42,185 nucleotides of DNA from Bacteroidales bacterium (GTDB lineage: Bacteria; Bacteroidota; Bacteroidia; Bacteroidales; UBA932), in NCBI GenBank assembly GCA_017558775.1, contig JAFYTP010000044.1, positions 1 through 42,185 of the forward strand, read 5' to 3'. The position numbers and the translations under genes are program-made. The notes under the pieces were generated by a model. The model was not told the DNA's origin, searched no databases, and saw only the letters and a list, made by a program, of their open reading frames with translations. This document shows, piece after piece, positions 9,189-39,347 of this stretch. Positions within the stretch are counted from its first letter, which is position 1, and every line of letters begins with the position of its first letter.

Positions 9189-10382
9189 ATGAAGAGGTTT
9201 TTCCTTTTTCTGGCGGTAGCTTTCACCGCTCTTGACTGTTTCGCGCAGACCCGCGACTGGGTCACCACCTGGGCCACCGCCCTGCAAATCGCCGAACCGC
9301 ACAACCGCCCGCCGGAGCCCGGCCTGGCCGCGAACTCCTTCCGGCAGATCGTGCAGGTTTCCATCGGCGGTAAAGCCATCCGGCTGCACCTGTCGAACCT
9401 GTTCAACGCGGATCCGACGGATATCCTGGGCGTGGAAGTCGCCGTGGCCAAGACGATGGGCGCGAGCCCGGAAATCGACGAAAGCACGACCGTCAAACTG
9501 ACCTTCGACGGTCACCCGTCCGTGACGATGGCGCCGGGCGCTTCCGTGGTCTCCGATCCGGTTCCCTTCCCGCTGGAAGACCGGATGAATCTGGCGATTA
9601 CGATCCAGTACGGGCGGATCTCATCGACCCTCCTGACCAGCCATCCGGGTTCCCGGACGACGTCCTATATCGCGGACGGGTACACCTCTGATTTCTCCGC
9701 GCCGATTGCCGAGACAAATCATTGGTACACCATCAGTTCCATTGACGTGAAGCCTCGCCGAAAGAGCGCCGCAATCGCCGTGCTCGGCGATTCCATCACC
9801 GATGGCCGCGGCACCACGACGAACGGGCAGGACCGCTGGACGGACCAGCTGTCCAAGTCCCTGCTCTCCGATCCCGCCACCCGGAACCTTTCCGTGCTGA
9901 ACTTCGGCCTGGGCGGCAACTGCATCCTGCGCGGCGGCCTCGGCCCCACCGGACAGAGCCGCTACGCCCGTGACCTCTTCGGCCATCCCGGCGTCAAGTA
10001 TGTCATTCTGTTTGAGGGAACTAACGATCTCGGCGGCAGCCGCAACGGCATGGCCACCGCGGAAGGGATCAAAGAGGTGTGGGCGAAGATTGTCGAGGAG
10101 GCGCACGCCATGGGCATCAAGGTCTTCGGCGCCACCGTCACGCCCGTCCGGGGCAACGGCTACTATTCCCCGGACCACGAGGCGGGCCGCGTCGCCCTGA
10201 ACGAATGGATCCGCACGAGCGGCGTTTTCGACGGGGTCATCGACTTTGACAAGATGGTGGCGGACCCGAACCAGCCCGACCGGCTGGACCCGGCCTTCCT
10301 GTACGAGAACGACTGGCTGCACCTGAATGCCGCCGGTTACGAGAAAATGGGCTGGGGCATCGACCGGAAACTATTCCGGTAA
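9189..10382 (+). CDS. SGNH/GDSL esterase, XynE-like (probable acetylxylan esterase)
   Basis: A periplasmic or secreted carbohydrate esterase of 397 residues. The start at 9189 follows GH67 by 10 bp and opens a signal peptide, MKRFFLFLAVAFTALDCFAQ. The N-terminal part begins with the RDWVTTWATALQ stretch typical of this subgroup. The SGNH blocks are all visible: GDSITDG (nucleophile Ser202), GLGGN (oxyanion Gly), GTND (oxyanion Asn), and DWLH with Asp375 and His378. The closest family I recognise is the XynE-like SGNH group, named after an esterase in the P. bryantii xylanase cluster. The likely role is to remove acetyl groups from xylan or xylo-oligosaccharides so that glycosidases can act. 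It overlaps the convergent DUF6057-like gene by 12 bp. Substrate is inferred from family and context. Confidence 0.9.
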   Translation: MKRFFLFLAVAFTALDCFAQTRDWVTTWATALQIAEPHNRPPEPGLAANSFRQIVQVSIGGKAIRLHLSNLFNADPTDILGVEVAVAKTMGASPEIDESTTVKLTFDGHPSVTMAPGASVVSDPVPFPLEDRMNLAITIQYGRISSTLLTSHPGSRTTSYIADGYTSDFSAPIAETNHWYTISSIDVKPRRKSAAIAVLGDSITDGRGTTTNGQDRWTDQLSKSLLSDPATRNLSVLNFGLGGNCILRGGLGPTGQSRYARDLFGHPGVKYVILFEGTNDLGGSRNGMATAEGIKEVWAKIVEEAHAMGIKVFGATVTPVRGNGYYSPDHEAGRVALNEWIRTSGVFDGVIDFDKMVADPNQPDRLDPAFLYENDWLHLNAAGYEKMGWGIDRKLFR

Positions 10383-11789
10383 CTGCTCGTTCATCATCCT
10401 CCAGTAGTAATACCAGTAGGTGTTCTTGAAGGCGGTCGGATTCTTTCCGAAGCGCCCCATCCGGTCCACGTTCGAGACATCGACCCCATAGCCGGCGACC
10501 TCTTCCGGGGTCAGCCGGCCTTGCTGGCTGAGCCAGATGAGGATGGCTTCGTGGTACAAGCGGGCGGGAATCCGGTCCGGCTCGTAATCCCGGATGAAAC
10601 TATCCAGGTCGTAGCACAGCAAATCATAGCAAAGCAGATAGTTGCGGGCCGTCACATTGGTGGAATCCGCTTCGAGCAGCCCCAGCAGGACGGCTCTCGG
10701 ATTCTCCGCCTGGTGGACGAAATCCTTTCCGGTCAATTTTGCCCGGTCTTCCGCCAGTTTTTCCTGAAGGGAACCATCCTGGCGTCCGGGCATCATGCGC
10801 CGGGCCCATTTCCGGTAAAACAGCGTCCCGCTGAGCATATTCAAGTATTTCTGTGCGGCGGCGTCTTCGCCCGTGATCAGGTTCACCCGGGCCAGCCGGG
10901 TGACAAAGCGGACACCCGTGTGCCGGGGAGATGCCTGCAAAGAAGTGATGGCGCTCTGCTCCGCCATCGTCATATCCCCCAGCTGGAACCAGGCCTCCCC
11001 CGCTAAAGTGTTGGTGAAAATCGCCCGGTCAGCCGAGACCGGGAAAAGGAGGGAAAATTGGTGATTCTGCGAGTGATTGAGCAGCGCGTTCCCCAAGTTC
11101 CCTTTCATCGCTTGGGCGAGATTGTAGCAGTAGCTCGCCTCCTCCATGTACAGGTCTTTCTCCGAGAGTTTCAGGACCTTGTCCCAATGCTCCCGGGAAA
11201 CCTCGATGTCCAGGCCAATCATCCGTTCGTCATCCAGCTTGGGTGTGCCCCATAGCCGACCGTATTGCGGATGATACGGAGAAGCGAGTGCCCATGCTCC
11301 GAAAGCGAGAAAAACCGCCACGGCGGCGCCCTGGAGCCAGACCCGCTTGAACTGCAGCGCAAGCAACACCAGAGAAAGATACCCTAGGACAACAAGCGTA
11401 TAGCAAGTCATATAGTTGTTGCCGGTTTCCCGCATAAATGACCACAAGAAGACGACCGCCGCGATGATCAGGGAAGGCCAATGGCTCAGGAAGCGCCGGC
11501 AGATCCGGTACATGACCATGCCGATGGCCGTCAGCAGCAGCGCCACGAGGAGTGGTCCGACGACCGGAAGGCCGAAAAACTGCTCCAGGAAATCGCCGCC
11601 CAGCCGGGCCAGCCAGCCGGCACCCCGGTAGGTCCGGGCGATATGGTCACCGTCCCAGAGGAACAGGTCCAACTGCTCCCGCCGCATCAGGTGGTAGGGG
11701 TAGGCGAACTGGAAGAAAAAGAAGCTTCCGAGGAACGCCAGGGCCGTGCAGATGGGGCCGGAATGCAATCTGTCTGCCTTCATGATCAT
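10371..11789 (-). CDS. DUF6057-like polytopic membrane protein, copy 1
   Basis: Function unknown. Residues 1-175 hold five predicted membrane helices (around SFFFFQFAYPYHLM, VVGPLLVALLLTAIGMVMY, SLIIAAVVFLWSFM, TLVVLGYLSLVLLAL and AAVAVFLAFGAWALA). About 290 helical, TPR-like residues follow (AWFQLGDMTMAEQSAITSLQ, GEDAAAQKYLNMLSGTLFY). It is clearly paralogous to the gene at 35087-36517: blocks such as RMIGLD, EASYCYNLA, LAGEAWFQ and MPGRQD are shared in order. I match it from memory to the Bacteroidales family DUF6057. Two in-frame ATGs, at 11789 and 11783, are possible starts. It lies downstream of susD but behind a terminator and has its own promoter at 11794-11824. Unlike copy 2, no CxxCH lipoprotein gene follows it; its end overlaps the esterase gene by 12 bp. 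Confidence 0.75.
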   Translation of the reverse strand: MIMKADRLHSGPICTALAFLGSFFFFQFAYPYHLMRREQLDLFLWDGDHIARTYRGAGWLARLGGDFLEQFFGLPVVGPLLVALLLTAIGMVMYRICRRFLSHWPSLIIAAVVFLWSFMRETGNNYMTCYTLVVLGYLSLVLLALQFKRVWLQGAAVAVFLAFGAWALASPYHPQYGRLWGTPKLDDERMIGLDIEVSREHWDKVLKLSEKDLYMEEASYCYNLAQAMKGNLGNALLNHSQNHQFSLLFPVSADRAIFTNTLAGEAWFQLGDMTMAEQSAITSLQASPRHTGVRFVTRLARVNLITGEDAAAQKYLNMLSGTLFYRKWARRMMPGRQDGSLQEKLAEDRAKLTGKDFVHQAENPRAVLLGLLEADSTNVTARNYLLCYDLLCYDLDSFIRDYEPDRIPARLYHEAILIWLSQQGRLTPEEVAGYGVDVSNVDRMGRFGKNPTAFKNTYWYYYWRMMNEQLPE

Positions 11790-11911: not shown

Positions 11912-13837
11912 TTATTTGACGGGATAACCCGGATTCTGATAGGCTTCCTTCGCGGCGTCATCCATCTGCATGTTATCCAGCTGACCCTGCGGGATCGGGC
12001 GGAGATAGTGGAACTTCTGGATGGTGCGCGTAACGGTCGCCGGGGTGTGATCGGCCTTACCGGGGCCGCAGATCGTGTACTTGGCGGCGCGCTTGTCCCA
12101 AGTCTGCGTACGGACCAGGTCGAACCAGCGGAAACCGTCGCCGAAGTACTCGCGCATGCGCTCGTCGAGGAGGTAGTCGATGGTGATGGTCGACGGCGTA
12201 GCGGCGGTCAGATCAGCGCTGAAATCAGCGTCGTAAGGCTCGTCCCAGTTGACCTTGTAGGACCACTTGCCGGCGCGGGCGCGCAGGACGTTGACGAGGT
12301 CGCGGGCGGACTTGCTGCCAGTGGCACCCTTGACGGCGGCCTCCGCGGCGATGAAGAAGAACTCGGAGAACTTGGCGATGTTGAACGGACGCGTGTGGGC
12401 GGCGTTCGGCTGGCCGGTTCCGCTCGTGTTGGTGCGGTACGGGCCGAGCTTCCAGATCTTCGGGTACATCAGGCGGCTGACACCGCTCGGATTCACCACG
12501 TAGTAGTCGTAGTTGGGGCTCACGCCGAGCATGGAGATACCGGCGTCGTTGCTGTACTGCACGCTGGCGTCTTCCTCGTCAAGATACACCAGGAAAGCCT
12601 GGTTCTTGCCGATGTGGGCGTTGTTCGGGCCGACGACGTACTCCGCCGGATTGCCGCCGCGGTCCCAGTTGGTGCGGAAGACATAGACGAAGGTGCCGTC
12701 ATAGCGGGAATCCTTGTCACGGTCGATGAAGGTGGCGATGGCCTCCTGGGTCGGAGCCATACGGCTCCAGGGACGGCCGCAGTACTGCTGGTCGGTACGG
12801 AGCACCGGGTTGATGCGGGCGCCGGTGTTGGCATCGGCCTGCATGTTCGGATAGTTCCAGTTCATCATCCAGCCGGCGAAGTTGTCCATGCCGCCACCAC
12901 CGCTGTAGCTGAGGCTGGCGCCGTTGTACTGCTCGGAATCCTCGGTATGGTCGGCATAGAGCATGATCTCCTGGTTGCGGTCGTGGGCGCCGTCGCTCAC
13001 CTCATAGAAGTGCTCCATCAGGCCGTAGGGGCCCGGGTTGTTGATACCCTGCAGGGACAGGTCATAGGCCTGCTGGAAGTACCACTTGGCGTCGTGGCCG
13101 TCCGGATCGGTGCGGCTGCACTCCGGATAGGTCGGGATCTGGTTCGGGTTCTCCAGCCACCAGGCATAGGTCAGATAGGCCTTGGCCAGGTACAGGCGGG
13201 CGACGTTCTGGGTGAGGGTGCCCGTCAGACGGGGATTCACGGGAAGGTCGTTCATCGCGGTCACGAGGTCCGGGAAGATGGCCTTGGTATAAACCTCAGG
13301 CACGGTGTTGCGCACGGACTCGCGGACCGGCTTGCTGTTGAAAGCGAGTTCGCCGGCGCCCAGGTCGAGCGGCACGCCGCCGAACGTCTGGACGAGCTGG
13401 AAGTAGTCGAAGGCGCGGAAGAAGCGGGCCTCGGCGATCATCGCCTTGTCCAGGCCCACGGCCTCGGCGTTCTCGATGATGCCGCTGGCGGTGTTGATAT
13501 ACGTGAAGGCGTTGCCCCAGAGGTTGTCACTGCGGGAGGTGCTGGCGTTCAGGGTGCCGGCGTCGGACATGTCGGCGTCCTTGAAGTTGCCGTCGGCGGA
13601 CTGGCCCCAGGTGGCCTCGTCGGTACCGGTGGTCAGGATGTTATAGTAGTAACCGTTGCCGTAGAGGTAGCGGAGCTGGCCGTACAGGGCGGTCAGACCG
13701 CCTTCCACACCCATCGAGGTGGTGAAGAAATCCGGGGTATAGTTGGTCTTCGGGTGCTCCTCGAGGATCTTCGTGCAGGAAGAGAGGGCGAGGGCGGCTC
13801 CGGCGATACCCAATGCGATTTTAGCAATATTTTTCAT
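11912..13837 (-). CDS. susD: SusD/RagB-type glycan-binding lipoprotein
   Basis: A surface lipoprotein that captures oligosaccharides and forms the lid of the SusC transporter. It has 641 residues with an SPII signal MKNIAKIALGIAGAALALSSC (lipidated Cys21), then the usual SusD start (TKILEEHPKTNYTPDFFTTS). Helical TPR segments contain the family phrase AEARFFRAFDYFQLVQTFGGVPL at about residues 135-157. The C-terminal part has LLDERMREYFGDGFRWFDLVRTQTW and ends YLRPIPQGQLDNM...QNPGY, which is typical. The start lies 13 bp past the SusC stop, so the two form one operon, closed by the hairpin at 11829-11857. The genetic context of GH10, GH67, GH115 and GH43 points to xylan oligosaccharides, but specificity cannot be read from sequence. 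Confidence 0.96.
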   Translation of the reverse strand: MKNIAKIALGIAGAALALSSCTKILEEHPKTNYTPDFFTTSMGVEGGLTALYGQLRYLYGNGYYYNILTTGTDEATWGQSADGNFKDADMSDAGTLNASTSRSDNLWGNAFTYINTASGIIENAEAVGLDKAMIAEARFFRAFDYFQLVQTFGGVPLDLGAGELAFNSKPVRESVRNTVPEVYTKAIFPDLVTAMNDLPVNPRLTGTLTQNVARLYLAKAYLTYAWWLENPNQIPTYPECSRTDPDGHDAKWYFQQAYDLSLQGINNPGPYGLMEHFYEVSDGAHDRNQEIMLYADHTEDSEQYNGASLSYSGGGGMDNFAGWMMNWNYPNMQADANTGARINPVLRTDQQYCGRPWSRMAPTQEAIATFIDRDKDSRYDGTFVYVFRTNWDRGGNPAEYVVGPNNAHIGKNQAFLVYLDEEDASVQYSNDAGISMLGVSPNYDYYVVNPSGVSRLMYPKIWKLGPYRTNTSGTGQPNAAHTRPFNIAKFSEFFFIAAEAAVKGATGSKSARDLVNVLRARAGKWSYKVNWDEPYDADFSADLTAATPSTITIDYLLDERMREYFGDGFRWFDLVRTQTWDKRAAKYTICGPGKADHTPATVTRTIQKFHYLRPIPQGQLDNMQMDDAAKEAYQNPGYPVK

Positions 13838-13850
13838 GTCGCGGATTCGT

Positions 13851-16800
13851 TTAGAAGGTTAAATTCACACCGAAGAGGATGTTGCGGGTGTTCGGCGTAT
13901 TGTAGCCCACATAGGACAGACGGCTCGGGCCCGGACGGCCGGAAGCGGTGGAACCGCCGTTGGCGTTGGGTTCCGGATCGAGGCCGGTCTCGCGGGTATA
14001 GTCGGAGAAGAGCACGATGCCCGGGTTCTGCAGGGTGGTGTAGACACGGAGATTGTCGATGCCGGCGCGCTTCAGGGCAGGGATCTTGTCGAAGCGGTAG
14101 CCGAGCGTGATCGTGCGGATCTTCAGGTAGGAGCCGTCGAAGTAAGCCAGGGTGGAGGCGTACTTGGGGTTGTCGCTGCTCACGAGGGAGCCCGGACGCG
14201 GATAGTGTGCGTTCTTGTTCTCCGGGGTCCAGTAGTCGACGTCAATCTGGCCACGGCGGCCGGTGAGCATGTTCAGGTAGGAGTTGCCGCTGTGCAGGGA
14301 GGACAGCAGGATGCCGCCCGCCTGGAAGGCGCCGATGACGGAGAACTCGAGGTTCTTCCAAGTCACGTTGGTGTTGAAACCGCCCTGGAAGGTGGCCTCG
14401 GCGTTGATCGGAACGCGGTCGTTGGAGTCGATGGCGCGCACGGGGGCGCCGTTCTCGTCGTATTCGCCGTGGTACTTGACCTTGATGGTGCCGATGGCCT
14501 GCTTCATACCGTTGACTTCGGTGCTGGGCTCGAGGATGTCCATGTAGGGATCGCCCTCCTGCCACAGACCGTCGTACTCGTAGTCGTAGAGGCAGTTCAG
14601 CGGATAACCGACGAACCAGGCGTTGCCTTCGTCGCGCTCGGTACCATCGGCCAGGGCGACGAGCTTGTTGCGGTTGGCGTAGATGTTCATGCCGGCGGTC
14701 CAGGTCCAGTCACGGGTTTCGAGGATGGTGCCGTTGAGGGTGAGTTCGAGACCACGGTTCTGGGTCGCGCCGATGTTGGCGGTGGTGGAGCTCACGCCGG
14801 AGGTGGAAGGCAGGCCGAGGTTGAGGAGGATGTCCTTCGTGGCCACGCGGTAGTGCTCGAGGGTACCGCGGAGACGGCCCTTGAAGAAGCTGAAGTCGAG
14901 ACCGAAGTTCCAGGTCTGGGAATACTCCCAGCCGAGGTCCTCGTTCGGTAGGGTGGACACATAGTAACCGGTGCCGTAGTTCGAGCCGAAGTTGTACACC
15001 ATCGTGCTCAGACGGCCGAGGGTGGCGTAGGCGGCGATGGCCTGGTTGGAGGTTTCACCGTAGCCGACGCGGAGTTTCAGTTCGTCCAGCCAGCCGCGGG
15101 TGCTGCTCATGAAGGACTCGTTGTGGATGTTCCAACCGACGGAGACGGCCGGGTAGGTGTGCCACTTGTGGCCGGTGGCCAGGCGGGAGGAAGCGTCGGA
15201 ACGGACAGCCGCGGAGAACATGTAGCGGTCGTCATAGGTGTACATGAGACGGCCCATGTAGGAGATGAGGCCGGTCTGCGTGTAGCTGCCGCCGTTCACG
15301 GTGATGTCGGAGGCCACGGCGCTGCCGATGTTGTAGTACTGGAAGAGTTCGTTCGGGATGTTCTTACCGGAGATGGACTGGCCGGTGGAGGTCGTCTGCT
15401 CGGCGGAATAGAGGCCGACGGCGTTCACGCGGTGCTTGCCGAAGATCTTGTCATAGGTGAGCAGGTTCTCGACCGTCCAGTTGCGGGTGTCGTTGAAGGA
15501 CCAGGAGGCGCCGTTGGGGTTGGTGGCGGAGCCGTTCACGCCCACGCCGGTGAAGGAACCGCCCTTGGAGTTGCGGTAGTTCAGGCCCACGCTGGCCTTG
15601 TAGGAGAGGCCGTCGATCCAGGGGAAGTAGAACTGGAGATAGCCGGTGTTGTAGGTGGCGATGGACTTGGACTCGTTCACCCAGACACCCTGGGCGGTGA
15701 GGTCTACCACGCGCTCGCGCGTTACGATATATTGATCGTTATCGGAAGGCATGTTGATGCGCCACTTGAGGTTGCCGTCCGTGTCGTAGGGAACCACGAG
15801 CGGGGACTTGGACAGGGCGGCGTACATGTCGACCTGGTTACCGGTGTTGGTGGCGTAGCTGGTGTTGGTGGAGAAACCGATGCGGAACCACTGGCCGATG
15901 CGCTGGTCCACGCCGCCGCTCAGGGCGATGCGGTCGTATCCCTGGGTGGGGATGACGGCTTCGTCATTGTAATAGGTGGCGCCGAAGCGGTAGCTGCCGC
16001 TCTTGGTGCCGCCGGAAACGTTGAGGTCGTAGTTCTGGGTGTAGCCGGTGCGGTAGAGGAGATCCTGCCAATCGGTGTACTGGTCGTCGGACTCGTCCAG
16101 GGTGTTGGTGTACTGGCCGGCCATCTGACGCATCTTGATGTACTTCTCACGCGGCATCATCGGGTACTTGACGGCCTTCTTGACAGTCGCATAGGAGTTG
16201 AAGGAAATCTTCGGAGCCTGGCCCTCGACACCCTTGTAGGTGGTGATGAGGATGACACCGTTGGCACCGCGGGAACCGTAGATGGCGGTGGAGGCGGCGT
16301 CCTTGAGGATGTCCATGCTCTTGATGTCGCTCGTGGAGATGTCCGTGAGGGAACCCATGAACGGCATGCCGTCCAACACGATGAGCGGGTCGTTGGAAGC
16401 GGACAGGGAACGCTGGCCGCGGATGCGGATCTGCATCGAGGAACCCGGCTTGGAGTTGGTCTGGGTCATCTCGACACCGGCGACGCGGCCTTCGAGGGCG
16501 CGCGTGACGTCACCGGCGGGGACGGCGCGGAGGTTGTCACCGCCCACGGAGACGATGGAACCGGTCACGTCCGTGCGACGCGCGGTACCATAACCGATCA
16601 CGACGGTGGCGTCGAGCTGCTCGGCGTCATCGGCGAGGACGATGTCGATCCGGCCACGCGCCTGCACGGGAATCTGTACGGTGGTGTAGCCCATGCAGGA
16701 CACTTCTAGAGTCGCGGACGGACTCACCTGGAGGGCATACGTACCGTCGACACCCGTGACGGCGCCGGTCGAAGAGTTGACAACCATCACGGCAGCGCCG

Positions 16801-16925
16801 GGGATGGCCACTCCGCTCTCGTCCGTAACCGTACCGGTGACGCGGATGGTCTGCGCGAGGGCGAAGACCGGCAGCATCAGGGCGACAGCCAGGGACGCAA
16901 GCGTTTTCTTAAGGTTAATTCGCAT
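13851..16925 (-). CDS. susC: SusC-type TonB-dependent transporter
   Basis: An outer-membrane oligosaccharide importer of 1024 residues, a normal SusC length. The order is: signal peptide to about residue 25 (ALAQ); CarbopepD_reg_2 domain with GTVTDESGVAIPGA and VSCMGYTTVQ; TonB box and plug (TVVIGYGTARRTDVTGSI, then the plug phrase LIVLDGMPF, and SIDILKDA-like SMDILKDAASTAIYGSRGANGVI); then the 22-strand barrel ending in the C-terminal aromatic signature ILFGVNLTF. It pairs with the SusD gene 13 bp downstream. The divergent partner is HTCS-2 and the shared gap holds a -7 box and a 14-bp palindrome. By context it imports xylan-derived oligosaccharides. The SusC identity is certain; the substrate is inferred. 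Confidence 0.96.
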   Translation of the reverse strand: MRINLKKTLASLAVALMLPVFALAQTIRVTGTVTDESGVAIPGAAVMVVNSSTGAVTGVDGTYALQVSPSATLEVSCMGYTTVQIPVQARGRIDIVLADDAEQLDATVVIGYGTARRTDVTGSIVSVGGDNLRAVPAGDVTRALEGRVAGVEMTQTNSKPGSSMQIRIRGQRSLSASNDPLIVLDGMPFMGSLTDISTSDIKSMDILKDAASTAIYGSRGANGVILITTYKGVEGQAPKISFNSYATVKKAVKYPMMPREKYIKMRQMAGQYTNTLDESDDQYTDWQDLLYRTGYTQNYDLNVSGGTKSGSYRFGATYYNDEAVIPTQGYDRIALSGGVDQRIGQWFRIGFSTNTSYATNTGNQVDMYAALSKSPLVVPYDTDGNLKWRINMPSDNDQYIVTRERVVDLTAQGVWVNESKSIATYNTGYLQFYFPWIDGLSYKASVGLNYRNSKGGSFTGVGVNGSATNPNGASWSFNDTRNWTVENLLTYDKIFGKHRVNAVGLYSAEQTTSTGQSISGKNIPNELFQYYNIGSAVASDITVNGGSYTQTGLISYMGRLMYTYDDRYMFSAAVRSDASSRLATGHKWHTYPAVSVGWNIHNESFMSSTRGWLDELKLRVGYGETSNQAIAAYATLGRLSTMVYNFGSNYGTGYYVSTLPNEDLGWEYSQTWNFGLDFSFFKGRLRGTLEHYRVATKDILLNLGLPSTSGVSSTTANIGATQNRGLELTLNGTILETRDWTWTAGMNIYANRNKLVALADGTERDEGNAWFVGYPLNCLYDYEYDGLWQEGDPYMDILEPSTEVNGMKQAIGTIKVKYHGEYDENGAPVRAIDSNDRVPINAEATFQGGFNTNVTWKNLEFSVIGAFQAGGILLSSLHSGNSYLNMLTGRRGQIDVDYWTPENKNAHYPRPGSLVSSDNPKYASTLAYFDGSYLKIRTITLGYRFDKIPALKRAGIDNLRVYTTLQNPGIVLFSDYTRETGLDPEPNANGGSTASGRPGPSRLSYVGYNTPNTRNILFGVNLTF

Positions 16926-16981: not shown

Positions 16982-16988
16982 GAGTCTT

Positions 16989-17002
16989 TGCAAACGTTTG
17001 CA
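16989..17002. promoter_or_regulatory. 14-bp palindromic operator candidate TGCAAACGTTTGCA
   Basis: A perfect 14-bp palindrome with central CG, starting 7 bp upstream of the susC -7 box. The form is that of LacI/GalR-family operators; the E. coli PurR site has the same GCAAACGTTTGC core. No LacI-family gene is in the window. A factor bound here would overlap RNA polymerase at the susC promoter, which suggests repression. An HTCS site is an alternative reading. Confidence 0.5.
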
Positions 17003-17044
17003 CACTCCGGATGTAACAATAGTTATAAGATTTGTTCCATGCCG

Positions 17045-17074
17045 TTTGAGAGTCGAAAAGAATTAGTATTTTTG
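17045..17074 (+). promoter_or_regulatory. Promoter of HTCS-2
   Basis: TTTG at 17045-17048, an 18-bp spacer, and TATTTTTG at 17067-17074: a full Bacteroidota promoter, ending 19 nt before the HTCS-2 start codon. A complete -33/-7 pair fits steady low-level expression of a sensor. Confidence 0.7.
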
Positions 17075-17093
17075 TACCAAACCCGAAACAAAA

Positions 17094-20000
17094 ATGAAAA
17101 AACGCCTGATTATCTTCGTCTTACTGACCGTCTTCGCCCTCCCGGCCTTCGCGCAGACATCCCGTCTATATACCTCGGAACTGGGTCTCCCCAACTCGCA
17201 GATCAACCGGATCGGCCAGGACGGGCGCGGGTTCCTTTGGGTATGTACAGAAGGCGGTCTGCTGCGTTTCGACGGCGTGAATTTCGAAGAATTCCGGCAT
17301 GACCAGAACAACGACTTCTCCCTCCTCAGCGACTCCGTCCACGACTTCTGCGAGGACGACCGCGGCGTGAAATGGGTCGGGACGGCTTCCGGGCTGGCGG
17401 TCTTCGACTCCGAGCACAGCCGGTTCGACCGCTTCGACCTGCAGGACAAGCGGCAGCCGGAGTCCCGGCAGTTCATCGGCAAGCTCATCCTCGTTCCCGG
17501 GCGGACGGGGGGCAGCCTTCTTTTCGTCATCACGGGCGGTTCGGGTATCTATGTCATCGACACGGCACAGCAGAAGGTGCTGGATGAGAAACGGGAAAAG
17601 ATTTACGCGTCCGTTCCGGACGAACATATCAGCACCGCGATCCTGGACGCCAACCGCCGGCTGTGGATCGTCCCGGACAAGAACGGCCTTCCGACCGTCC
17701 TGAATGTGGACAGCCTGGAACCCTGCACGGACGTGCGCTGGGAAGCGGATTTGATTCGGGTGGCCGATGACCTGCACATATCGGCCCTCGCCGAGGATCC
17801 GGTCACGCACAATCTGCTGATCGGGTCGGACCATGGCCTTCTCGTCTTTGATAATGGTACGGGCACGGTGCGCCACGCGCGCGGGAAGACCGCCGCGAAA
17901 ACGGCCATTTCCAGCGCCATTTTCAACAACCAGGCGCGCCCGGAAGACGGTCGCACCTTCCTGCTGGGCCACGAGGACGGCGGCCTGCTCCTGTTCGACA
18001 CCGCGACGGAAGAGGTCCGGCCGGGCATCCTCCCCTCCATGCGACGCACTTCGGAGAACTGGAAAGCGACCACGATGTTCGAGGACAACCAGGGCAATGT
18101 GTGGCTGGGCATCTACCAGAACGGCCTGCTCGTGGCGCCCAAGTCGATGTTCGGCTTCTCCTATCTCGGCTTCGACAAGAACGGGATTCCCGGGCAGAAC
18201 ACCGCCTGCGTGATGTCTCTCTATGACGACGGAAAGCGGCTCTGGGTGGGTACCGACGGCGCCGGCCTGTTCTGCACGGAACCGGGCGGGAGACAGCGGA
18301 ACTTCAACCGGGACAATTCCGGGCTCACCAATAACGCAGTCATGTGTGTCGAGGGCGACAAGCATGGAACCCTCTGGATCGGAACCTATCTGGATGGCCT
18401 GTTCTATATGGATTCCGGCGGAAACATCCGCCTCTTCCCGGAACAGAACCGCCTCGGCGCGACGAGGATCCGCACCCTGGAATACGACGCGAAACGGGAC
18501 CTGCTGTACGTGGGCACCTACGGCGCCGGACTCGTGGTCATCGACCCGAACCAGCTCAAGGTCGTTTCCTCGGTCGTCGACGAAGAGTATCTGTGGATCA
18601 GCGCTTTGCATCTGGACAAGAGCGGTCTCCTCTGGGTGGGCACTTACAACGGACCTTTCCAATACGAGGCGGAAACCGGGCAAATCGTTCCGTTCCAGTC
18701 CGAGGAAGGACGCCCGAGAATCTATTCCATCGCCAGCGACGACGAGGGGAAGATCTGGTTCGGTACGGGAGACGGCGTGGTGTGCATGGACGCGGAAGGG
18801 ACGGTCCTGAAGCGGTACACCGAAAGCGACGGGCTGGCCAACAATGTCATCCGTGATATTGTTCCCTTCCAGACGGGAAGCGTGTGGATCTCCACGGCCG
18901 GCGGTCTTTCGCGGCTGAACCCGAAGACGGGCGCCATCACTTCCTTCCATGCCTCCGACGGCCTCCAGAGCAATGAATTCCGCTCCGGCGCCGTCGCCCA
19001 GTCCGCTTCCGGATTGCTGTATTTCGGCGGCACGGGCGGCGTGACCGCCTTCTCGCCCCGACTCATCGACGGCAGCAGGCACAAAGTGCCGCAGGTGTAC
19101 CTTTCCCGCCTGCGGGAACTGGAACAGGAGATCGAATACGATCCCAACCTGGGCAGCGCCAACCTCATCGACAAACACATCTCGGAAGCCACCCGCATCC
19201 TGGTTCCGACGGGCACCGACCTGTTCTCCCTGACTTTCTCCGTGCCGGAGTACACCAACCCGATGCGAATGGCTTTTGCCAGCCGTCTCAACGGGCTCGA
19301 TTCCGACTGGAAGAACGTCCCTTCGGGCCGACGGACGGTGACTTATACCAATGTGCCTCCGGGGCACTACACCTTCGAGGTGAAAGCATATTTCGAAGGA
19401 ATGACGGAGGAGTATTCAATCAGAAGCATCGACATTAAAGTGGAAGCGCCCTGGTACCGGACGGGATGGGCCTATGCGGCATATCTGCTGCTGCTTTCGG
19501 GCATCGGCTACATCCTTTACCGCCTGTGGCGTCGCAGGGAACAGCGCAAGCAGGAAATGAAGGACGCCGAACTGAAGGAACTCCGGCTCGGGCTGTTCAC
19601 CAACCTCACGCACGAGATCCGCACCCCGCTCACGCTGGTGATGGGCCCGCTCCGCACACTGCGAGAGTCCGAGCAGGATCCCGCCCAAAAGGACACCTAC
19701 AATCTGATGTACCGTAACTGTCTCCGTATCAATCGCTTGGTAAACCAGCTGATGGACCTGCGCAAGGTCGATGCGGGGCAGATGCCGATGCATTTCCGGC
19801 AAACGGACCTAGTCTATTTCATCAAGGACATCATGAAGTCCTTCTTCACCCTGGCCAAGAGCAAGAACATCCGGTTTACGATCGATCCTGCGCGGGAGGA
19901 GGAGCTCCTATGGATCGACCAGGGCAACTTCGACAAGATCATCTACAACATCCTCTCGAACGCGTTCAAACACACCCCGGACGGCGGCCGGATCCATCTG

Positions 20001-32627: not shown

Positions 32628-33626
32628 ATGGCAGATAAAGTAAAGAAACGCTATCTCCTTCCCGCAGACTACATGGCCGATCCGTCCGTGCACGTCTTCG
32701 ACGGCAAGATCTATATCTATCCTTCCCACGACTGGGAGTCGGCCGCTCCGGACGATGACTTCGGCAGCGAGTACGACATGAAGGACTACCATGTCCTCAC
32801 CATCGAGGGTGACGATCCGATGACCTCGCCCGTCAAGGACTGGGGCGTCATCCTGGACATCAAGGATGTTCCGTGGGCGCGCCGCCAGCTTTGGGACAAT
32901 GAGGTCACGAAAGGTCGCGACGGCAAGTACTACATGTACTTCCCGGCCAAGGACAAGACCGACATCTTCCGCTGCGGCGTCGCCGTGAGCGACAGCCCCA
33001 CCGGTCCTTTCAAGGCCCTCCCGGACCCGATCCGTGGCAGCTATTCCATCGACTATGCCATCCTGCACGATGACGCCGATGACGAATACTATATGTATTT
33101 CGGCGGCATCTGGGGCGGTCAGCTGCAGCGCTACGAGGACAACCTCGCGAAGGACAACGGCACTTCCTACCCCGCTGACGGCCAGCCGGCCATCCCGGCC
33201 CGCGTCGTCCGTCTGGGCAAGGACATGACCCAGTTCGCCGAGGAGCCCAAGCCGGTCGTCATCCTGGACGAAGACGGCAGCCCCATCAAGGTGGAAGACA
33301 ACGAGCGCCGCTTCTTCGAGGCCAGCTGGATGCACAAGTACAACGGAAAATACTACTTCAGCTACTCCACCGGCGACACCCACAAGCTGTGCTACGCCAT
33401 TGGTGACAATCCTTACGGCCCGTTCACCTACAAGGGCGTGATCCTCACTCCTGTGTTCGGCTGGACTACGCACCACTGCATCGTGGAATACAAGGGCAAG
33501 TGGTACCTGTTCCACCACGACAGCGGCCCCTCCAAGGGCATCAACCGCCTCCGGAGCCTGAAAGTCTGTGAACTGAAGTATAACGAGGACGGTACGATCC
33601 GTACCATCGAAGGTTTGGACGACTAG
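32628..33626 (+). CDS. GH43 glycosidase, cytoplasmic (beta-xylosidase/alpha-arabinofuranosidase type)
   Basis: A five-bladed beta-propeller glycosidase of 332 residues without signal peptide, hence cytoplasmic. The start at 32628 (MADKVKKRYLLP) follows the symporter by 23 bp. The three GH43 acidic residues are seen: base Asp18 in YMADPSVHVFDGK, pKa modulator Asp142 in SYSIDYAILHD, and acid Glu231 in FFEASWMHKYNGKYY. GH43 enzymes of this size act on beta-1,4-xylosides or alpha-L-arabinofuranosides. Together with the symporter it would hydrolyse imported xylo-oligosaccharides. The upstream leader AAAACACTGATAATC resembles those of GH67 and araA. Its TAG stop shares the palindrome CTAG with the stop of the convergent lipoprotein gene (4-bp overlap). 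Confidence 0.93.
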   Translation: MADKVKKRYLLPADYMADPSVHVFDGKIYIYPSHDWESAAPDDDFGSEYDMKDYHVLTIEGDDPMTSPVKDWGVILDIKDVPWARRQLWDNEVTKGRDGKYYMYFPAKDKTDIFRCGVAVSDSPTGPFKALPDPIRGSYSIDYAILHDDADDEYYMYFGGIWGGQLQRYEDNLAKDNGTSYPADGQPAIPARVVRLGKDMTQFAEEPKPVVILDEDGSPIKVEDNERRFFEASWMHKYNGKYYFSYSTGDTHKLCYAIGDNPYGPFTYKGVILTPVFGWTTHHCIVEYKGKWYLFHHDSGPSKGINRLRSLKVCELKYNEDGTIRTIEGLDD

Positions 33627-35083
33627 CGGGCCTCTTCGAAGGCTTCGCTGTCCATCCCGCACATCCGCTGCGCGTCCCTGGCCGTCAGGCCGGTGGACGC
33701 GCTTCCCATATCGGGCACGTTGAAGGATTTCAAATTATAGACGTAGAAACGGGAAGACTTCTGCGGGAGGACGAAAGGCTTGGTCGTGCGGCCGTCCGCG
33801 TCCAGATGGCAGAAATAGGGCTTTCCGTACTGGCCATCGCCCCGCTTGCTGGCGAAAACGAACCAGCGGCTGTTCGAGGACCAGCTGTGGTAGGAATCGG
33901 ACTTGTCGCCCTTGATTTCCTCCATCGGCCGGACTTCTCCCGTCTGCAAATCAGCCAGATACAGGGTGCATTCAGTATGGAACAGCGGGAAGGTGCCGTA
34001 ATTGGCCACCGTGAACATCAGCCAGCGTCCGTCGGGCGAGGCCTTGGGATGGCAGACGGAGCCGTTTCCGGTCCAGACCGTATCGACCTGCTCGCCGATA
34101 TGGCCGTTCGTCACGTCGAAATCGGCCCGGACCAGGTCATATCGCAAACTCTTGATTTCCTGCGGGACTGGCAGCGTATCAGCCACGCAGTAGAAGACGG
34201 ACGAGCCGTCCGCGGAGAAGCACGGGAAGGTCTCGAACTTATCGGCCCTGGCCACATGCGCGAGATTGATCATCTCGTCCTTCTCGAAGTCCGCGACCGT
34301 GAGGTCGGAGGCCGTGTCGAACACCTCCATCCGCTCGCCTGCCACCGTGTGGAAGCTGGGGATGATGATGTTCGTGGAGAACACGCCGAAACGGCCGCCG
34401 GGATGCAGTTCCCCATAGACAGTCGGAGAAATCATCGACCCGGTCTTCAGGGTCAATTTCCGCAGCTTGCCGCCCTGGTTCAGAATGGCACCGCCTTTGG
34501 GGCCGCGGATGTAGTACAGGGAATAATCCCCGCGCTGCTGCCCATGGATATGGCAGTTCATGCAGGCGTTGTCCGTATGCTTGAAGTCCGAAATGACGGT
34601 CTCCTTGAAGTTCTCGACACAGCGTTCCCGGATGGAGACCTCGTTGTACATCTGATAGGAGGGCTCGATGAGGCGGTAAGTCAGCCAGCCGTCCATCGGA
34701 TCCTCGCTCACGAAGATGGACCAGGCGTCCGATACCGGCTTCCCGTCCACGACAGCTTCCGCTTTGACCGAAATGGTCTTTCCCGCGGCACCATCGACAA
34801 AGGCCTTCCATTTGCCCAGGCTCCATTCCACTTCCGTTCCCTTGATAGTGACGGACTTGTCGCCCAGGGTAAAGGTCGTCTTCGCCTTCCGGACGCCGTC
34901 CATCGCGTACCGGTAGTTCAGGGGGGCAATGTTCGCGGGAATGGTCACGTCCTTGTAGTCCGGATAGGTCACCAGCGGGCCCGCGCTGCCGTCTACCGCG
35001 ATGGAAACATCCCGACCCTTGCAGGCGGAAAGCACCCCCAGGAGAAGAAGCGCGAATAGCAGAATATTGAGGTTATGTCGCAT
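33623..35083 (-). CDS. Lipoprotein with CxxCH motif and TolB/PD40-like propeller, unknown function
   Basis: A 486-residue protein that I do not recognise as a characterised enzyme. Residues 1-21 form a lipoprotein signal (LLGVLSAC, Cys21). An Ig-like N-terminal stretch (about 30-130) precedes a single possible c-type haem motif, CMNCH at 174-178, within DNACMNCHIHGQ. The C-terminal half has repeated PD40/TolB-like blade phrases: FPCFSADGSSVFYC, HPKASPDGRWLMFTV and SYHSWSSNSRWFVFASKR. It would sit in the periplasm or on the surface. It starts 3 bp past the DUF6057-like gene (stop at 35087), so the two are tightly co-translated, and both follow GH97 in one operon. Redox or haem sensing, or simply a structural propeller, are possibilities. 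The motif could also be non-haem, since only one is present. Confidence 0.75.
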   Translation of the reverse strand: MRHNLNILLFALLLLGVLSACKGRDVSIAVDGSAGPLVTYPDYKDVTIPANIAPLNYRYAMDGVRKAKTTFTLGDKSVTIKGTEVEWSLGKWKAFVDGAAGKTISVKAEAVVDGKPVSDAWSIFVSEDPMDGWLTYRLIEPSYQMYNEVSIRERCVENFKETVISDFKHTDNACMNCHIHGQQRGDYSLYYIRGPKGGAILNQGGKLRKLTLKTGSMISPTVYGELHPGGRFGVFSTNIIIPSFHTVAGERMEVFDTASDLTVADFEKDEMINLAHVARADKFETFPCFSADGSSVFYCVADTLPVPQEIKSLRYDLVRADFDVTNGHIGEQVDTVWTGNGSVCHPKASPDGRWLMFTVANYGTFPLFHTECTLYLADLQTGEVRPMEEIKGDKSDSYHSWSSNSRWFVFASKRGDGQYGKPYFCHLDADGRTTKPFVLPQKSSRFYVYNLKSFNVPDMGSASTGLTARDAQRMCGMDSEAFEEAR

Positions 35084-35086
35084 AGT

Positions 35087-36517
35087 CTAATGAGATTCTT
35101 GTGGTTGCATCGCTTTCAAGTAATATAGCCAGTAGGTGTCCTTGAAAGCGACGGGATTCTGATAAAAGCGGTTCATCCGTTCCACGGTGGACTCGTCCAC
35201 CCCGAAGCGGGCGATTTCCTGTCCGTTCATGCGATCGTTCTGGCTGAGCCAGATCAGGATGGCCTCCTGGTAGAGACGTCCTTTGACCGGCTTCGCCATA
35301 TAGTCCTCCATGAACGAATCCAGGTCGTAGCGCATCAAGTCGTAGCACAGGAGGTATTGACGCGCCACATCGTTGGAAGGGTTCGCTTCCAGCAGGGCGA
35401 GCAGGATGCGACGGGGATTCTCCGACTGGTGGACGAAATCCGCGGCGGGAAGGTTCGCGCGCCGCGCGGCCAGGGAAGCGCGGACCGCCTCATCCTGCCG
35501 TCCGGGCATCCGGCTCCGGGCCCATTTGCCATAGAAGAGCGTGTGGGACAGGAGATTCAGATACTTCTGCGCAGCGCCGTCCTCGCCGGAAATCAGGTTC
35601 ACCTCCGCGAGGCGCTTGATGTAGCGGGCGCCCGTGTGGTCGGGAGACGACTGCAGGGCGACGATGGCCGCCTGTTCCGCCACGGTGACATTCCCCACCT
35701 GGAACCAGGCCTCCCCGGCCAGACAGTCCGAGAAAGCGCTCTTGTCGATGGTGACCGGCGGGAGCAGGCTGAATAATGCCATCCCCTGGGAATGATTCAT
35801 CAGGGTCGATCCCAGATCCCCCTTCATCGCATGCGCGAGGTTATAGCAGTAACTCGCCTCCACCGTATACAGATCCTTCTTAGAAAGCTCCTGGACCTTG
35901 TCCCAGTTCTCCCGGGCGACCTCGGCGTCCAGGCCGATCATCCGGTCATACCCGACTTCGGGCGTATTCCACAGCATGCCGTAATACTTGTGGTACGGCG
36001 ATCCCAAGGCCCATACTCCGATGGCCAGGAACACGATAGCGGCCACAATCTTTTGCCACGCTTTCTTGAACTGAAGCGCAGCCAAAATGAGAGACAGATA
36101 TCCCAGCACAACCACCGTGTAGCGGGTCGTATAGATGTTCCCCGTCTCGCGCAGAACGGACCAGACGAAGACCAGCGCGGCAATCCCCAGGGAAGGCCAG
36201 ACACCCAGGAAATGCCTGAGAATCCGGTATGTGACAATGCCGATGCCCGTAACCAGCAGCGCGATGACGAGGGGGCCGACCACGGGAAGGTGGAAGAACT
36301 GCTCCAGGAAATCGGTCACGAACCGCACTACAGCGCCCATCCCCCGATACGTTGCAGCGATGTAATCCCGGTCGAACACGAACAGATTGGCCTGCTCCCG
36401 TTTGATCAGGTGATACGGATAGCCGAACAGGAAGAAGCAGAAGGACGACAGGAACGCCAGGCCCGCGGCCAGGGGGCCGATGTGTTTCCGGAATCCGCTC
36501 AAGGGCTTAGCTTGCAT
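35087..36517 (-). CDS. DUF6057-like polytopic membrane protein, copy 2
   Basis: Function unknown; 476 residues from the start at 36517, which lies 13 bp past the GH97 stop and opens MQAKPLSGFRKHIGP just before the first membrane helix. Five membrane helices lie in the first 190 residues (LAAGLAFLSSFCFFLFGYPY, VVGPLVIALLVTGIGIVTY, SLGIAALVFVWSVL, TVVVLGYLSLILAAL and IVAAIVFLAIGVWAL). A C-terminal TPR-like helical domain follows (CLAGEAWFQVGNVTVAEQAAI, GEDGAAQKYLNLLSHTLFY). It is a paralogue of the gene at 10371-11789 along its whole length. The three-gene operon GH97-this gene-CxxCH lipoprotein links it to glycan use. A role as a membrane anchor for the lipoprotein, or as a signalling scaffold, is only a guess. 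Confidence 0.75.
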   Translation of the reverse strand: MQAKPLSGFRKHIGPLAAGLAFLSSFCFFLFGYPYHLIKREQANLFVFDRDYIAATYRGMGAVVRFVTDFLEQFFHLPVVGPLVIALLVTGIGIVTYRILRHFLGVWPSLGIAALVFVWSVLRETGNIYTTRYTVVVLGYLSLILAALQFKKAWQKIVAAIVFLAIGVWALGSPYHKYYGMLWNTPEVGYDRMIGLDAEVARENWDKVQELSKKDLYTVEASYCYNLAHAMKGDLGSTLMNHSQGMALFSLLPPVTIDKSAFSDCLAGEAWFQVGNVTVAEQAAIVALQSSPDHTGARYIKRLAEVNLISGEDGAAQKYLNLLSHTLFYGKWARSRMPGRQDEAVRASLAARRANLPAADFVHQSENPRRILLALLEANPSNDVARQYLLCYDLMRYDLDSFMEDYMAKPVKGRLYQEAILIWLSQNDRMNGQEIARFGVDESTVERMNRFYQNPVAFKDTYWLYYLKAMQPQESH

Positions 36518-36530: not shown

Positions 36531-38573
36531 TTAATCGTATATGAGAAGATCCGATAGCTTCTCATATACGAAGCCGCCATTGCAGGGAATCGTGACTTTC
36601 ACCTTTCCGCCCTTGTGAATAACGTGATGACGGCCACCCTGGAAAGTATCGGCCTTGGTTTCGCGCGGATTCAAAGTCAGGGGCGCCTTCTTGCCGTGGA
36701 GCTTGACAGCGGCCTTGACCGTAGCGGGATCTACGATGTCATAATAGAAGGCATAGGTCCCGCGCGGGAGATCGAACTCCACCGTGCGGGACTCGGGCGA
36801 GGCGTTGATGCCAGCGTAGTACCATTTATCGCCGGTGCGGCGCGCCAGCGAAACATACTGCCCCGGATAACCGTCGATGAACTTGACCTCGTCCCACTGC
36901 GTCGGAACCGCCTTCATGAAGTTGACGGCCCAGTCGGGCGCGTCCGTCAGATTCTCCGGGGTCATCGCGAAGTGCTGGACGTAGCTCTGGAAGAGCACGG
37001 CCGTGGCAAGGGCGAAAACATCGGAGGTGCGACGGATGGAACCGCGTTTCGTGACGTCGTTCATAGGGTTATAGACCTTGTTCAGGGTGCTGCCGCCGAA
37101 ATCCATCGCCGCCACCGTGTTACGGATGAACGGATGCAGGCATGCGCTGAAGGCCTCGCGGTCGCAGCGATACTGGCCGAAATAGAGGTTCTCGCTCGCG
37201 AGGACCGCCTCGGCGGAAGCAAAGTTCGGATACATCCGCTCCCAGCCACGCGGCAGCGTGCAGCCGTGGAAGACGCACTGCAGGCCGAACTCGTTCGCAT
37301 CGACCAGGATATCTTCATACAACTGCAGCATCACCTGCTTGTCGGAGCCGAAGAAATCGACCTTGATGCCCTTGACGCCGAGTTTCTGCAGCCAGGCCAT
37401 TTCCGCCCGGCGCGTGACGCTCCGGTTCATGATATTCCGGGGGCCCTGCGGGGCGTCGTTCCAATAACCGTTGGAGTTGTACCAGACGAAGAGCCGGACG
37501 CCCTTGGACTTGGCGTATTCGGCGAGCTTTTCCATGTTCTCCCGGCCGATCTGGGTGTCCCAGAGGGCGTCCACGAGGATGGTCTCCCAGCCCATCGCGG
37601 CGCTGAAGTCAACATACTGCAGCTGAACGGGATAGGTGGTATTGTTGTCCATCTTGAGGATCCAGCTCCAGGAGCCGCGGGAAGGCTCATAAACCTGCGA
37701 GGCCTCGTACTGCGGTTCCACGACGTCCCACGCGACGGTGGTCTCCACGATGGGCTTCAGGTCCGGGGCCACGGTGAGCGTGCGCCAGGGGGTGCAGCCC
37801 GGAACGGCCAGACCCACGGTGGAAGTGCCGTTGCCGCCGATTTCCTCCGGCATCGGGAAAGCTAGTTGATACGAGCCATCGGGGTTGCCAATGAGGCGGC
37901 CACCGCAATAGGTGCCGTTCACGCCCGTCTCAGAGAGGAGCACCCAGCCCTTGTCCCCGTTCCGGAACAGGCACGGGAAGGTGTAGCCGAAGCCGTCCCC
38001 GTTCTTGCCCAGGGTGTCATCGGCCTTATAATCCGTCTCATAGCTGGGCGTCGTGCGGGCGAATCCCGCCATCGGCGGCATCTGGGGGCAGAGGAAGGAG
38101 GTCGTGCCGTCCGGGAAGATGTAGCCCGTGGCCTCCTCCTTGACGACGCACACCTTCGTATCGGCCTTGGGCGCGTATACCTTATATCTAAAAGCGATGT
38201 CGTTCGCGCTCACCTGGATGATCAGGTCGATGGCGGGCTTTCCGTCCTTGGAGAACGAGAACACGCCCCGGTTCGCGCGATAATGCACCGTCGACACCTT
38301 GATGGTGGGGACGCTGTAATCGTCGGAGACCGCGTCGATCTTGACGCCCGTGAGGGTCAATCCCTCCGTGTAATCACCGACATCGGTCTTCAGGCCGAGG
38401 GGCGACGGGGAGAGGAATTCCACCCCGTCGTAGGTCACGCCGTAGGTAGGCGCGCCGCCCTTATCGTTCACCGTTACCACCATCCGCCCGTCCGGGCCGG
38501 CCACGCGCTCCTCTCCCGCCACCATCGGCAGCGCCAGGAGCAACATACTGAGCATCAAGGATATTTTTTTCAT
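36531..38573 (-). CDS. GH97 glycosidase, retaining type (alpha-galactosidase or beta-L-arabinopyranosidase-like)
   Basis: A 680-residue GH97 enzyme. The start at 38573 gives the signal peptide MKKISLMLSMLLLALPMVAG. An N-terminal beta-sandwich (about 25-270) is followed by a (beta/alpha)8 barrel and a C-terminal beta domain. In the barrel, GIKVDFFGSDKQ carries nucleophile Asp406. Glu461, exactly 55 residues on in EAVLASEN, fits the acid/base spacing of the retaining B. thetaiotaomicron enzyme BT1871 (Asp415/Glu470, from memory). The inverting SusB-type alpha-glucosidases lack this Asp. Retaining GH97s act on alpha-D-galactosides or beta-L-arabinopyranosides, both caps found on complex plant glycans. 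It heads a minus-strand operon with the DUF6057-like and CxxCH genes and is divergent from the arabinose operon, sharing twin operators. Confidence 0.92.
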   Translation of the reverse strand: MKKISLMLSMLLLALPMVAGEERVAGPDGRMVVTVNDKGGAPTYGVTYDGVEFLSPSPLGLKTDVGDYTEGLTLTGVKIDAVSDDYSVPTIKVSTVHYRANRGVFSFSKDGKPAIDLIIQVSANDIAFRYKVYAPKADTKVCVVKEEATGYIFPDGTTSFLCPQMPPMAGFARTTPSYETDYKADDTLGKNGDGFGYTFPCLFRNGDKGWVLLSETGVNGTYCGGRLIGNPDGSYQLAFPMPEEIGGNGTSTVGLAVPGCTPWRTLTVAPDLKPIVETTVAWDVVEPQYEASQVYEPSRGSWSWILKMDNNTTYPVQLQYVDFSAAMGWETILVDALWDTQIGRENMEKLAEYAKSKGVRLFVWYNSNGYWNDAPQGPRNIMNRSVTRRAEMAWLQKLGVKGIKVDFFGSDKQVMLQLYEDILVDANEFGLQCVFHGCTLPRGWERMYPNFASAEAVLASENLYFGQYRCDREAFSACLHPFIRNTVAAMDFGGSTLNKVYNPMNDVTKRGSIRRTSDVFALATAVLFQSYVQHFAMTPENLTDAPDWAVNFMKAVPTQWDEVKFIDGYPGQYVSLARRTGDKWYYAGINASPESRTVEFDLPRGTYAFYYDIVDPATVKAAVKLHGKKAPLTLNPRETKADTFQGGRHHVIHKGGKVKVTIPCNGGFVYEKLSDLLIYD

Positions 38574-38579
38574 ACTCCT

Positions 38580-38669: not shown

Positions 38670-39347
38670 ATGGCCTCCAAAGCGTATTACAGCATCCATC
38701 CCAAGTTCCACGCGGCCGTGGACTGCATCATCTTCGGCTTCGAGGAAGGTGAACTGAGCCTGCTGCTCCTCCAGCGGAATTTCGAGCCGGCCAAGGGAGA
38801 ATGGTCCCTCGCGGGCGGCTTTGTCGAGGACGGCGAGAACCTGGACGACGCGGCCCGCCGCGTGGTGGCGGACCTCACCGGGCTCGACGACCTGTACATG
38901 CGGCAGGTCCATACCTACGGCGACGTCGAGCGCGACCCCGGAGAGCGCGTGCTCTCCACCGCGTACTACGCCCTCGTGAACATCAAGAAATACGACCGGG
39001 AACTGGTCCGTGCCCATAACGCCTTCTGGGTCAGGCTTCCCGAAATCCCCCACCTCATCTTCGACCACGACCGGATGGTGGACGACGCCCTGCGTTTCAT
39101 GCAGTACCAGGCCAGCGTCAAGCCGGTGGGCATCAACCTCCTCCCGGAGGAATTCACCCTCACGCAGCTCCAGACCCTCTATGAGGCCATCCTGGGCGAA
39201 CGCATCGACAAGCGGAACTTCCGCAAGCGGATCGCCGGGATGGACTACATCGAGAAGACCGGGGGCATCGACAAAACCCTCTCCCGCAAGGGCGCGGCCC
39301 TGTACCGCTTCAACCGGGACAAATACGACGGCAACTTCAAAATCTAA
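38670..39347 (+). CDS. araR: Nudix-fold transcription regulator, AraR type
   Basis: A 225-residue regulator with an N-terminal Nudix fold (about 10-140) and a C-terminal winged helix (about 150-220: LTQLQTLYEAILGERIDKRNFRKRI then LSRKGAALYRF). The Nudix box keeps Gly50, Glu56, Arg64 and Gly71, but the metal-binding glutamates are replaced (Val65, Asp68, Leu69). The fold therefore should bind a ligand and not hydrolyse one, as in the characterised Bacteroides AraR that senses L-arabinose (from memory). It heads an operon with a symporter, AraD and AraA, which supports arabinose as effector. Twin 19-bp inverted repeats upstream suggest autoregulation. NrtR-like NAD regulators share the architecture, but the neighbours argue against that role. 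Confidence 0.88.
   Translation: MASKAYYSIHPKFHAAVDCIIFGFEEGELSLLLLQRNFEPAKGEWSLAGGFVEDGENLDDAARRVVADLTGLDDLYMRQVHTYGDVERDPGERVLSTAYYALVNIKKYDRELVRAHNAFWVRLPEIPHLIFDHDRMVDDALRFMQYQASVKPVGINLLPEEFTLTQLQTLYEAILGERIDKRNFRKRIAGMDYIEKTGGIDKTLSRKGAALYRFNRDKYDGNFKI

Follow-up and report, generated by a model that had tools for sequence, protein, structure and literature searches.

The DUF6057-LP gene pair in the window

The window, by which we mean the whole 42,185-nucleotide stretch of a Bacteroidales contig that was analyzed, carries on its minus strand a local operon whose first gene encodes a GH97 protein by Pfam (36531..38576). This gene is followed by one for a 476-residue membrane protein of the DUF6057 family (35087..36517) and then by one for a 486-residue lipoprotein, referred to here as LP (33623..35083), in which the open reading frame (ORF), Pfam, and an alignment delineate an N-terminal region, a CxxCH segment, and PD40-type propeller repeats. 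The gaps between the three genes, 13 bp and then 3 bp, were reported in an initial annotation of this DNA and were confirmed from the ORF coordinates. The start of the DUF6057 gene was taken to be the ATG at 36517; the longest ORF begins at 36580, within the GH97 gene. The pair stands away from the window's SusC gene (13851..16925, minus strand, Pfam) and from the minus-strand gene at 11912..13837, which is SusD-like as judged from its position and which served as a reference when locus genes were labeled. After these two lies a second DUF6057 gene (10371..11777, minus strand), an orphan with no LP partner, whose product shares 63% identity with the first in the matched part. Genes for GH9, GH115, GH10 with a CBM, GH43, and three hybrid regulators are also found in the window. 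A NUDIX regulator with an NrtR/AraR-type DNA-binding domain (38670-39347) is divergent from the GH97 operon and precedes a sodium:solute symporter.

The membrane protein matches PF19529 (DUF6057) in Pfam with 390.1 bits against a cut-off of 29.8, and a simple hydropathy scan predicts five membrane helices within residues 13 to 175 (35993..36481, minus strand), as had been proposed for both family and helix number. The TPR-like tail proposed alongside them is not supported by Pfam, in which no TPR family matched the tail at an E value of 0.1 or below. The window copy is a short form, the long DUF6057 forms examined having seven to nine predicted helices. Hydropathy and the positive-inside rule predict an inner N terminus and a part of about 300 residues outside the cytoplasm; this C-terminal part of 301 residues (35090..35992, minus strand) is predicted to be periplasmic. 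The DUF6057 family has a name but no assigned function, and the protein has no NCBIfam match and nothing credible in the PDB by sequence. A role as a heme b protein or quinol dehydrogenase was considered and rejected, as no histidine reaches 90% conservation across 31 sequences, and judged from its sequence DUF6057 is not an obvious heme b protein.

In LP, the motif CMNCH was confirmed at residues 174 to 178 (34550..34564, minus strand, by ORF translation), N-terminal to the propeller repeats. Conservation of its cysteines in homologs had been named beforehand as a test, and exactly one CxxCH, at the same alignment column, is present in all 182 non-redundant full-length LPs; six partial ORFs were set aside, with the motif in four and absent from two. 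This invariance is not an artifact of selection, because the named loci were gathered by propeller motifs and not by CxxCH. The PD40-like blades are likewise borne out, with one repeat (residues 393 to 419) above the Pfam cut-off in the window LP and PD40 matches in 62 of 62 diverse homologs at a loose E value of ≤1. That LP is a lipoprotein agrees with a lipobox Cys21 kept in 99% of the 182 homologs and a lipobox-like pattern in 146 of them, export being judged by motif only. An acidic stretch after the lipid-anchor cysteine would mark surface export. Following Cys21 there are zero to two acidic residues in five positions (146 sequences) and no acidic stretch, for which reason LP is placed facing the periplasm. 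Outside the motif, His227, His369, and His399 are conserved at 96 to 100% and are candidate second iron ligands, and no conserved methionine that could act as a ligand was seen beyond position 5 of the signal region.

PD40 is the only family match of LP above a cut-off in Pfam and NCBIfam. The NCBIfam matches are all sub-threshold, the best being TolB with 20.6 bits against an equivalog cut-off of 343.15, and neither database revealed similarity of the window LP to a known cytochrome family. Stray matches of cytochrome type (Haem_bd, Paired_CXXCH_1, and Cytochrom_D1) occurred at E values of about 0.03 in one or two of the 62 homologs. Comparison with the PDB by sequence gave weak propeller matches only, with no cytochrome among the 60 matches listed.

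Co-inheritance and genomic surroundings of the pair

Among 393 genomes of the order, LP was found in 49, DUF6057 in 52, and both in 48, after 44 of 93 genomes had been dropped for LP matches under 100 bits and 12 of 64 for DUF6057 matches below the PF19529 cut-off. Thus, 48 of the 49 LP genomes have DUF6057 and 48 of the 52 DUF6057 genomes have LP, in agreement with the earlier idea of a dedicated membrane partner; in the sole genome with LP only, LP is a fragment. The adjacency holds across other genomes as well. Of the 100 LP hits listed in the order genomes, at least 77 adjoin a listed DUF6057 hit (a lower bound, up to three DUF6057 candidates having been scored per genome), with DUF6057 upstream on the same strand in 67 of these 77, downstream in 9, and otherwise placed in 1, and DUF6057 is present in 78 of the 79 named loci from the best 80 of 389 confirmed matches. 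The end of DUF6057 overlaps the start of LP at 119 of 173 junctions, with a median of -4 bp. Tandem pairs are common, and two loci, L090 and L091, hold four consecutive pairs each. In the genome from which the window comes, four LP and five DUF6057 genes were found; the three LPs outside the window all lie on one contig, each partnered by DUF6057. Named isolates carrying the pair include Bacteroides luti DSM 26991 and Breznakibacter xylanolyticus DSM 6779.

LP and DUF6057 distances are correlated at 0.93 over 132 pairs, and the assignment of partners agrees in 348 of 348 quartets from 31 loci with two or more pairs, against a shuffle mean of 0.50. Since linkage alone can produce such joint inheritance, it indicates a unit of inheritance and not contact between the proteins. 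Taken as a whole, we are in little doubt that DUF6057 and LP form a functional unit.

The surroundings of the pair were surveyed in the 79 named loci, with genes within them chosen by our own scoring; as these loci represent the best 80 of 389 confirmed matches (best-match loci below), the neighborhood counts describe closer relatives. In the same strand run as the pair, SusD occurs in 45 and SusC in 44 of the 79 best-match loci, an unassigned ~490-residue protein in 24, and GH5 in 18. The initial annotation had linked the pair to GH97, and this holds within the operon of this window; elsewhere, BLAST with the window GH97 found such a gene within 10 kb in only 1 of the 79 other best-match loci. 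The usual neighbor is SusD, and neither GH97 nor arabinoxylan is the general context of the pair.

Neighbors on the same strand, with a gap of <250 bp, longer than 90 amino acids, and unlabeled before, were scanned with Pfam for 60 of 111 upstream and 54 of 113 downstream genes, three downstream repeats of upstream genes being excluded. Among these 60 and 54 neighbors were SusD (9), DUF4369 (13 and 4), GH5 (19), GH67 (5), GH26 (3), GH130 (2), and pectate lyase (2); GH36, an epimerase, and a GDSL esterase each lie near it in single loci. The enzyme families concerned have roles in xylan, mannan, pectin, and beta-glucan breakdown, and this suggests that the surroundings serve the breakdown of glucuronoxylan, mannan, beta-glucan, and pectin, a pattern that the window's own enzymes match. 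The saccharolytic setting claimed earlier is mostly upheld, but in 38 of the 79 best-match loci none of the nine enzyme families sought was present. Oxidoreductases are few among the scanned neighbors, with FMN_bind in 1 of the 60 upstream neighbors and none seen in the 54 downstream. Hybrid two-component regulators lie within 10 kb in 8 of the 79 best-match loci, and no CcsA or NapC/NirT gene was present in any of the 79. A secondary-metabolite cluster as the context was considered and dropped, the neighbors in L060 and L090 having turned out to be miscellaneous.

Several other genes of these loci deserve mention. The DUF4369 protein, of about 200 residues (L073:7658-8251 and similar), shares the strand run of the pair in 17 of the 79 best-match loci and is a possible third component of the module. 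A chorismatase-like (FkbO/Hyg5) protein (L073:14721-15944) is found near DUF6057-LP pairs in 12 of the 79 best-match loci. In L012, a 1,208-residue SusC (14494-18117, minus strand) bears a C-terminal OmpA-family domain (PF00691, residues 1110 to 1197) after a charged linker. Of the 60 SusC genes in the loci, some truncated where a locus ends, 8 have such an OmpA-like tail (checked with Pfam in one); a literature search for OmpA-tailed SusC returned nothing.

Heme assembly proteins and cytochrome operons

If LP were a c-type cytochrome, its heme would have to be attached, and we therefore looked at PF01578, the assembly protein family, in other genomes. A sample of 200 genomes of the genus includes 60 with LP and 124 with PF01578, 123 of them above the cut-off (G396 was dropped). 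In the 79 good-quality congeners, PF01578 is present in 26 of 26 genomes with LP versus 29 of 53 without (Fisher's exact test, 1.1e-5), and in congeners of all qualities the proportions are 53/60 versus 70/140, the seven LP-bearing genomes that miss it each being <90% complete. In the order sample it is present in 39 of 40 good LP-bearing genomes, chosen on rounded completeness, versus 230 of 285 lacking LP (p 0.006). The genomes in both samples are related, and the Fisher values overstate their independence. GH10 was used as a control for a plant-fiber habit: in good congeners lacking LP, PF01578 occurs in 6 of 9 genomes with GH10 versus 23 of 44 without (p 0.49), a small control, and good LP-bearing congeners that lack GH10 still have PF01578 in 10 of 10 cases.

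A profile search of the window's own genome, which is 88% complete, did not find PF01578, PF05140 (ResB), or PF02335 (NrfA). At that completeness one missing assembly gene is not decisive, and PF05140 and PF02335 are insensitive here, neither having matched a Bacteroides control genome. Another genome, G322, is 99% complete and has an LP with the motif CLNCH and no PF01578 match. In an alignment of four CcsA sequences, a tryptophan-rich stretch, an LMPAL pocket, and fixed histidines are all retained, and PMC10663686 describes the same features for the heme site and CxxCH pocket of CcsBA. By these sequence features the assembly proteins look genuine.

In two LP-bearing congeners, G548 and G557, a cytochrome operon lies head to head with the DUF6057-LP pair, divergent and about 0.1 kb apart. 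Its order is NapC/NirT cytochrome, Gfo/Idh/MocA, TIM barrel, CcsB, and CcsA; the NapC/NirT protein has four CxxCH motifs and is fused to an FGE-sulfatase domain, and the TIM barrel is xylose-isomerase-like. The operon looks like a periplasmic sugar redox system. It is also found in LP-bearing G585 and G463, where it is not adjacent to the pair, and in four of the five LP-lacking genomes examined (G487, G492, G436, and G470, and not G509), which indicates that it does not need LP. The loci with this operon are L124 (6118-11978, minus strand), L126, L136, L143, L148, L149, L150, and L151. The head-to-head arrangement raised, by a small step in each case, our estimates that LP carries heme and that this heme serves electron transfer.

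The loci examined included those of nine top-tier genomes by CcsA profile A7, all with LP and without the NapC/NirT operon, and of five mid-tier genomes lacking LP. In those nine LP-bearing genomes, CcsB-CcsA stands without a plausible cytochrome gene in the 4.6 to 20 kb examined, and the same is true of G509, which lacks LP; short CxxCH frames in four of the nine loci were, in our judgment, antisense-like or distant. Each of the nine has a single PF01578 match, and with no plausible cytochrome beside it, this only lyase would serve a client elsewhere. LP is a candidate for that client in these nine genomes.

Other arrangements also occur. A fused CcsBA adjoins a protein with two CxxCH motifs in L129, L130, L131, and L134, the protein in L130 (1304-3088) being a di-heme oxidoreductase, DHOR (PF06537, Pfam). 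CcsB-CcsA adjoins a three-CxxCH protein in L132, where Pfam identifies it as CCP_MauG, and in L133, with L127 similar. CcsA is not generally close to LP: of 60 typed CcsA places, 5 are on the same contig as an LP, four of them within 15 kb, with about two expected by a rough estimate, and among the CcsA places near LP only those in G548 and G557 are meaningful. A CcsA subtype as a dedicated lyase was also considered and rejected. The 14 best-scoring genomes with profile A7 all have LP, as do 6 of 17 in the next tier, and the link is weak because three of the four seeds were chosen for lying on LP contigs and because related genomes share subtypes.

In light of these observations, LP probably carries heme. 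The CxxCH is kept in 182 of 182 LPs, and the possible c-type heme raised initially is supported indirectly, by PF01578 in 26/26 versus 29/53 congeners and by the operon in G548 and G557; it is weakened by the genome of the window, where no assembly protein was detected.

Proposed function and comparison with known systems

We propose that DUF6057 and LP, inherited together, make up an envelope module of plant-polysaccharide loci in which LP is a mono-heme lipoprotein and DUF6057 its partner, and we assign this reading a probability of about 0.57. Bacteroidales would attach the two-gene module to loci for the utilization of plant cell wall polysaccharides. DUF6057 would be an inner-membrane protein whose C-terminal part lies in the periplasm, LP would be a lipoprotein facing the periplasm, and its CxxCH would receive one covalent heme from CcsB-CcsA, with His227, His369, or His399 presumably providing the second iron ligand. 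DUF6057 may hold or assemble LP. In the simplest picture, a membrane protein keeps a heme-bearing propeller near the uptake machinery. The least certain step is that the heme would serve electron transfer, perhaps with a quinol cytochrome of the NapC/NirT type, in a redox step on imported sugars; electron transfer as the role of the heme is a tentative suggestion, with the balance somewhat against it. A broader proposal is more doubtful still, namely, that these are locus-specific heme c modules, copied with their loci, in which a propeller cytochrome and an inner-membrane partner exchange electrons with NapC/NirT-type quinol cytochromes and couple envelope redox to the uptake or trimming of plant cell wall sugars in anaerobes.

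The same motif might serve without heme, by binding a metal or forming a disulfide, and the pair would then be a TolB-like trans-envelope scaffold that assembles or holds SusC and SusD. The failure to find the assembly protein in the window's genome or in G322, the resemblance of LP to TolB and other propellers, the few oxidoreductases among the scanned neighbors (FMN_bind in 1 of 60 upstream, none in 54 downstream), and the OmpA-like tail on 8 of 60 SusC genes of the loci would all suit such a scaffold. We consider it unlikely, however, given the exact heme c motif with its histidine in all 182 LPs, the assembly protein in 26/26 LP-bearing versus 29/53 LP-lacking congeners, and the operon of a cytochrome and CcsB-CcsA that adjoins the pair in two congeners.

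That difference between congeners might in turn reflect shared ancestry or genome size only, the pair having no redox role. Genomes of one genus are related and the counts were made without tree correction, the cytochrome operon is found without LP too, and CcsA lies little closer to LP than expected by chance. But the link was seen in both the genus and the order samples, and the GH10 control, though small at nine genomes, shows no such link; on balance, we think this explanation improbable. A role for LP as a heme-based redox or gas sensor that tunes the expression of its own locus would fit the single heme motif, the lack of any enzyme domain found, the several copies per genome, and the hybrid two-component regulators within 10 kb in some best-match loci. 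Yet such regulators are present in no more than 8 of the 79 best-match loci, and neither LP nor DUF6057 has a recognized signaling domain, which makes a sensor very improbable in our view.

The proposed heme-bearing envelope module can be set beside several known systems. Neither Pfam, NCBIfam, nor the open-licence literature yielded an annotation of these proteins with a proven function, and a text search of that literature found no paper on the DUF6057-LP pair or on such a pair in Sus-like loci. The membrane partner is a clear member of DUF6057 (PF19529), the window copy differing from the long forms examined in having five helices instead of seven to nine. In the Tol system, TolB acts with inner-membrane partners. 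LP shares PD40 repeats with the TolB/PD40 propellers and is likewise predicted to be periplasmic beside an inner-membrane partner, but it differs from TolB in its CxxCH and lipobox and scores far under the equivalog cut-off. Cytochrome cd1 combines a heme motif and a propeller in one chain, as LP does; PF02239, however, matches 1 of 62 LP homologs, at an E value of 0.032, and in LP the CxxCH precedes the propeller repeats. CcsB-CcsA, of cytochrome c biogenesis System II, is present, as separate or fused proteins, in LP-bearing congeners and was undetected in the window's own genome. NapC/NirT (PF03264) membrane cytochromes are quinol dehydrogenases; G548 and G557 each have one in head-to-head orientation with the pair, and Pfam assigns neither LP nor DUF6057 to PF03264.

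A further comparison is with Sus-like loci, in which the pair has SusC, SusD, GH5, GH10, GH26, GH67, or GH130 nearby. To our knowledge, such loci are usually described in terms of transport, binding, hydrolysis, and regulation, without a redox component. We regard the pair as an undescribed envelope module of such a Sus-like locus, and it hints at an undescribed redox step in fiber use. If the broader proposal of locus-specific heme c modules is correct, the module would be a new class of Sus-like system component, and its conservation and repeated duplication in rumen and gut Bacteroidales raise the question of whether a cytochrome takes part in anaerobic fiber use. Compared with the Sus-like systems described so far, the distinguishing feature of the pair is a heme-type protein together with a dedicated membrane partner.
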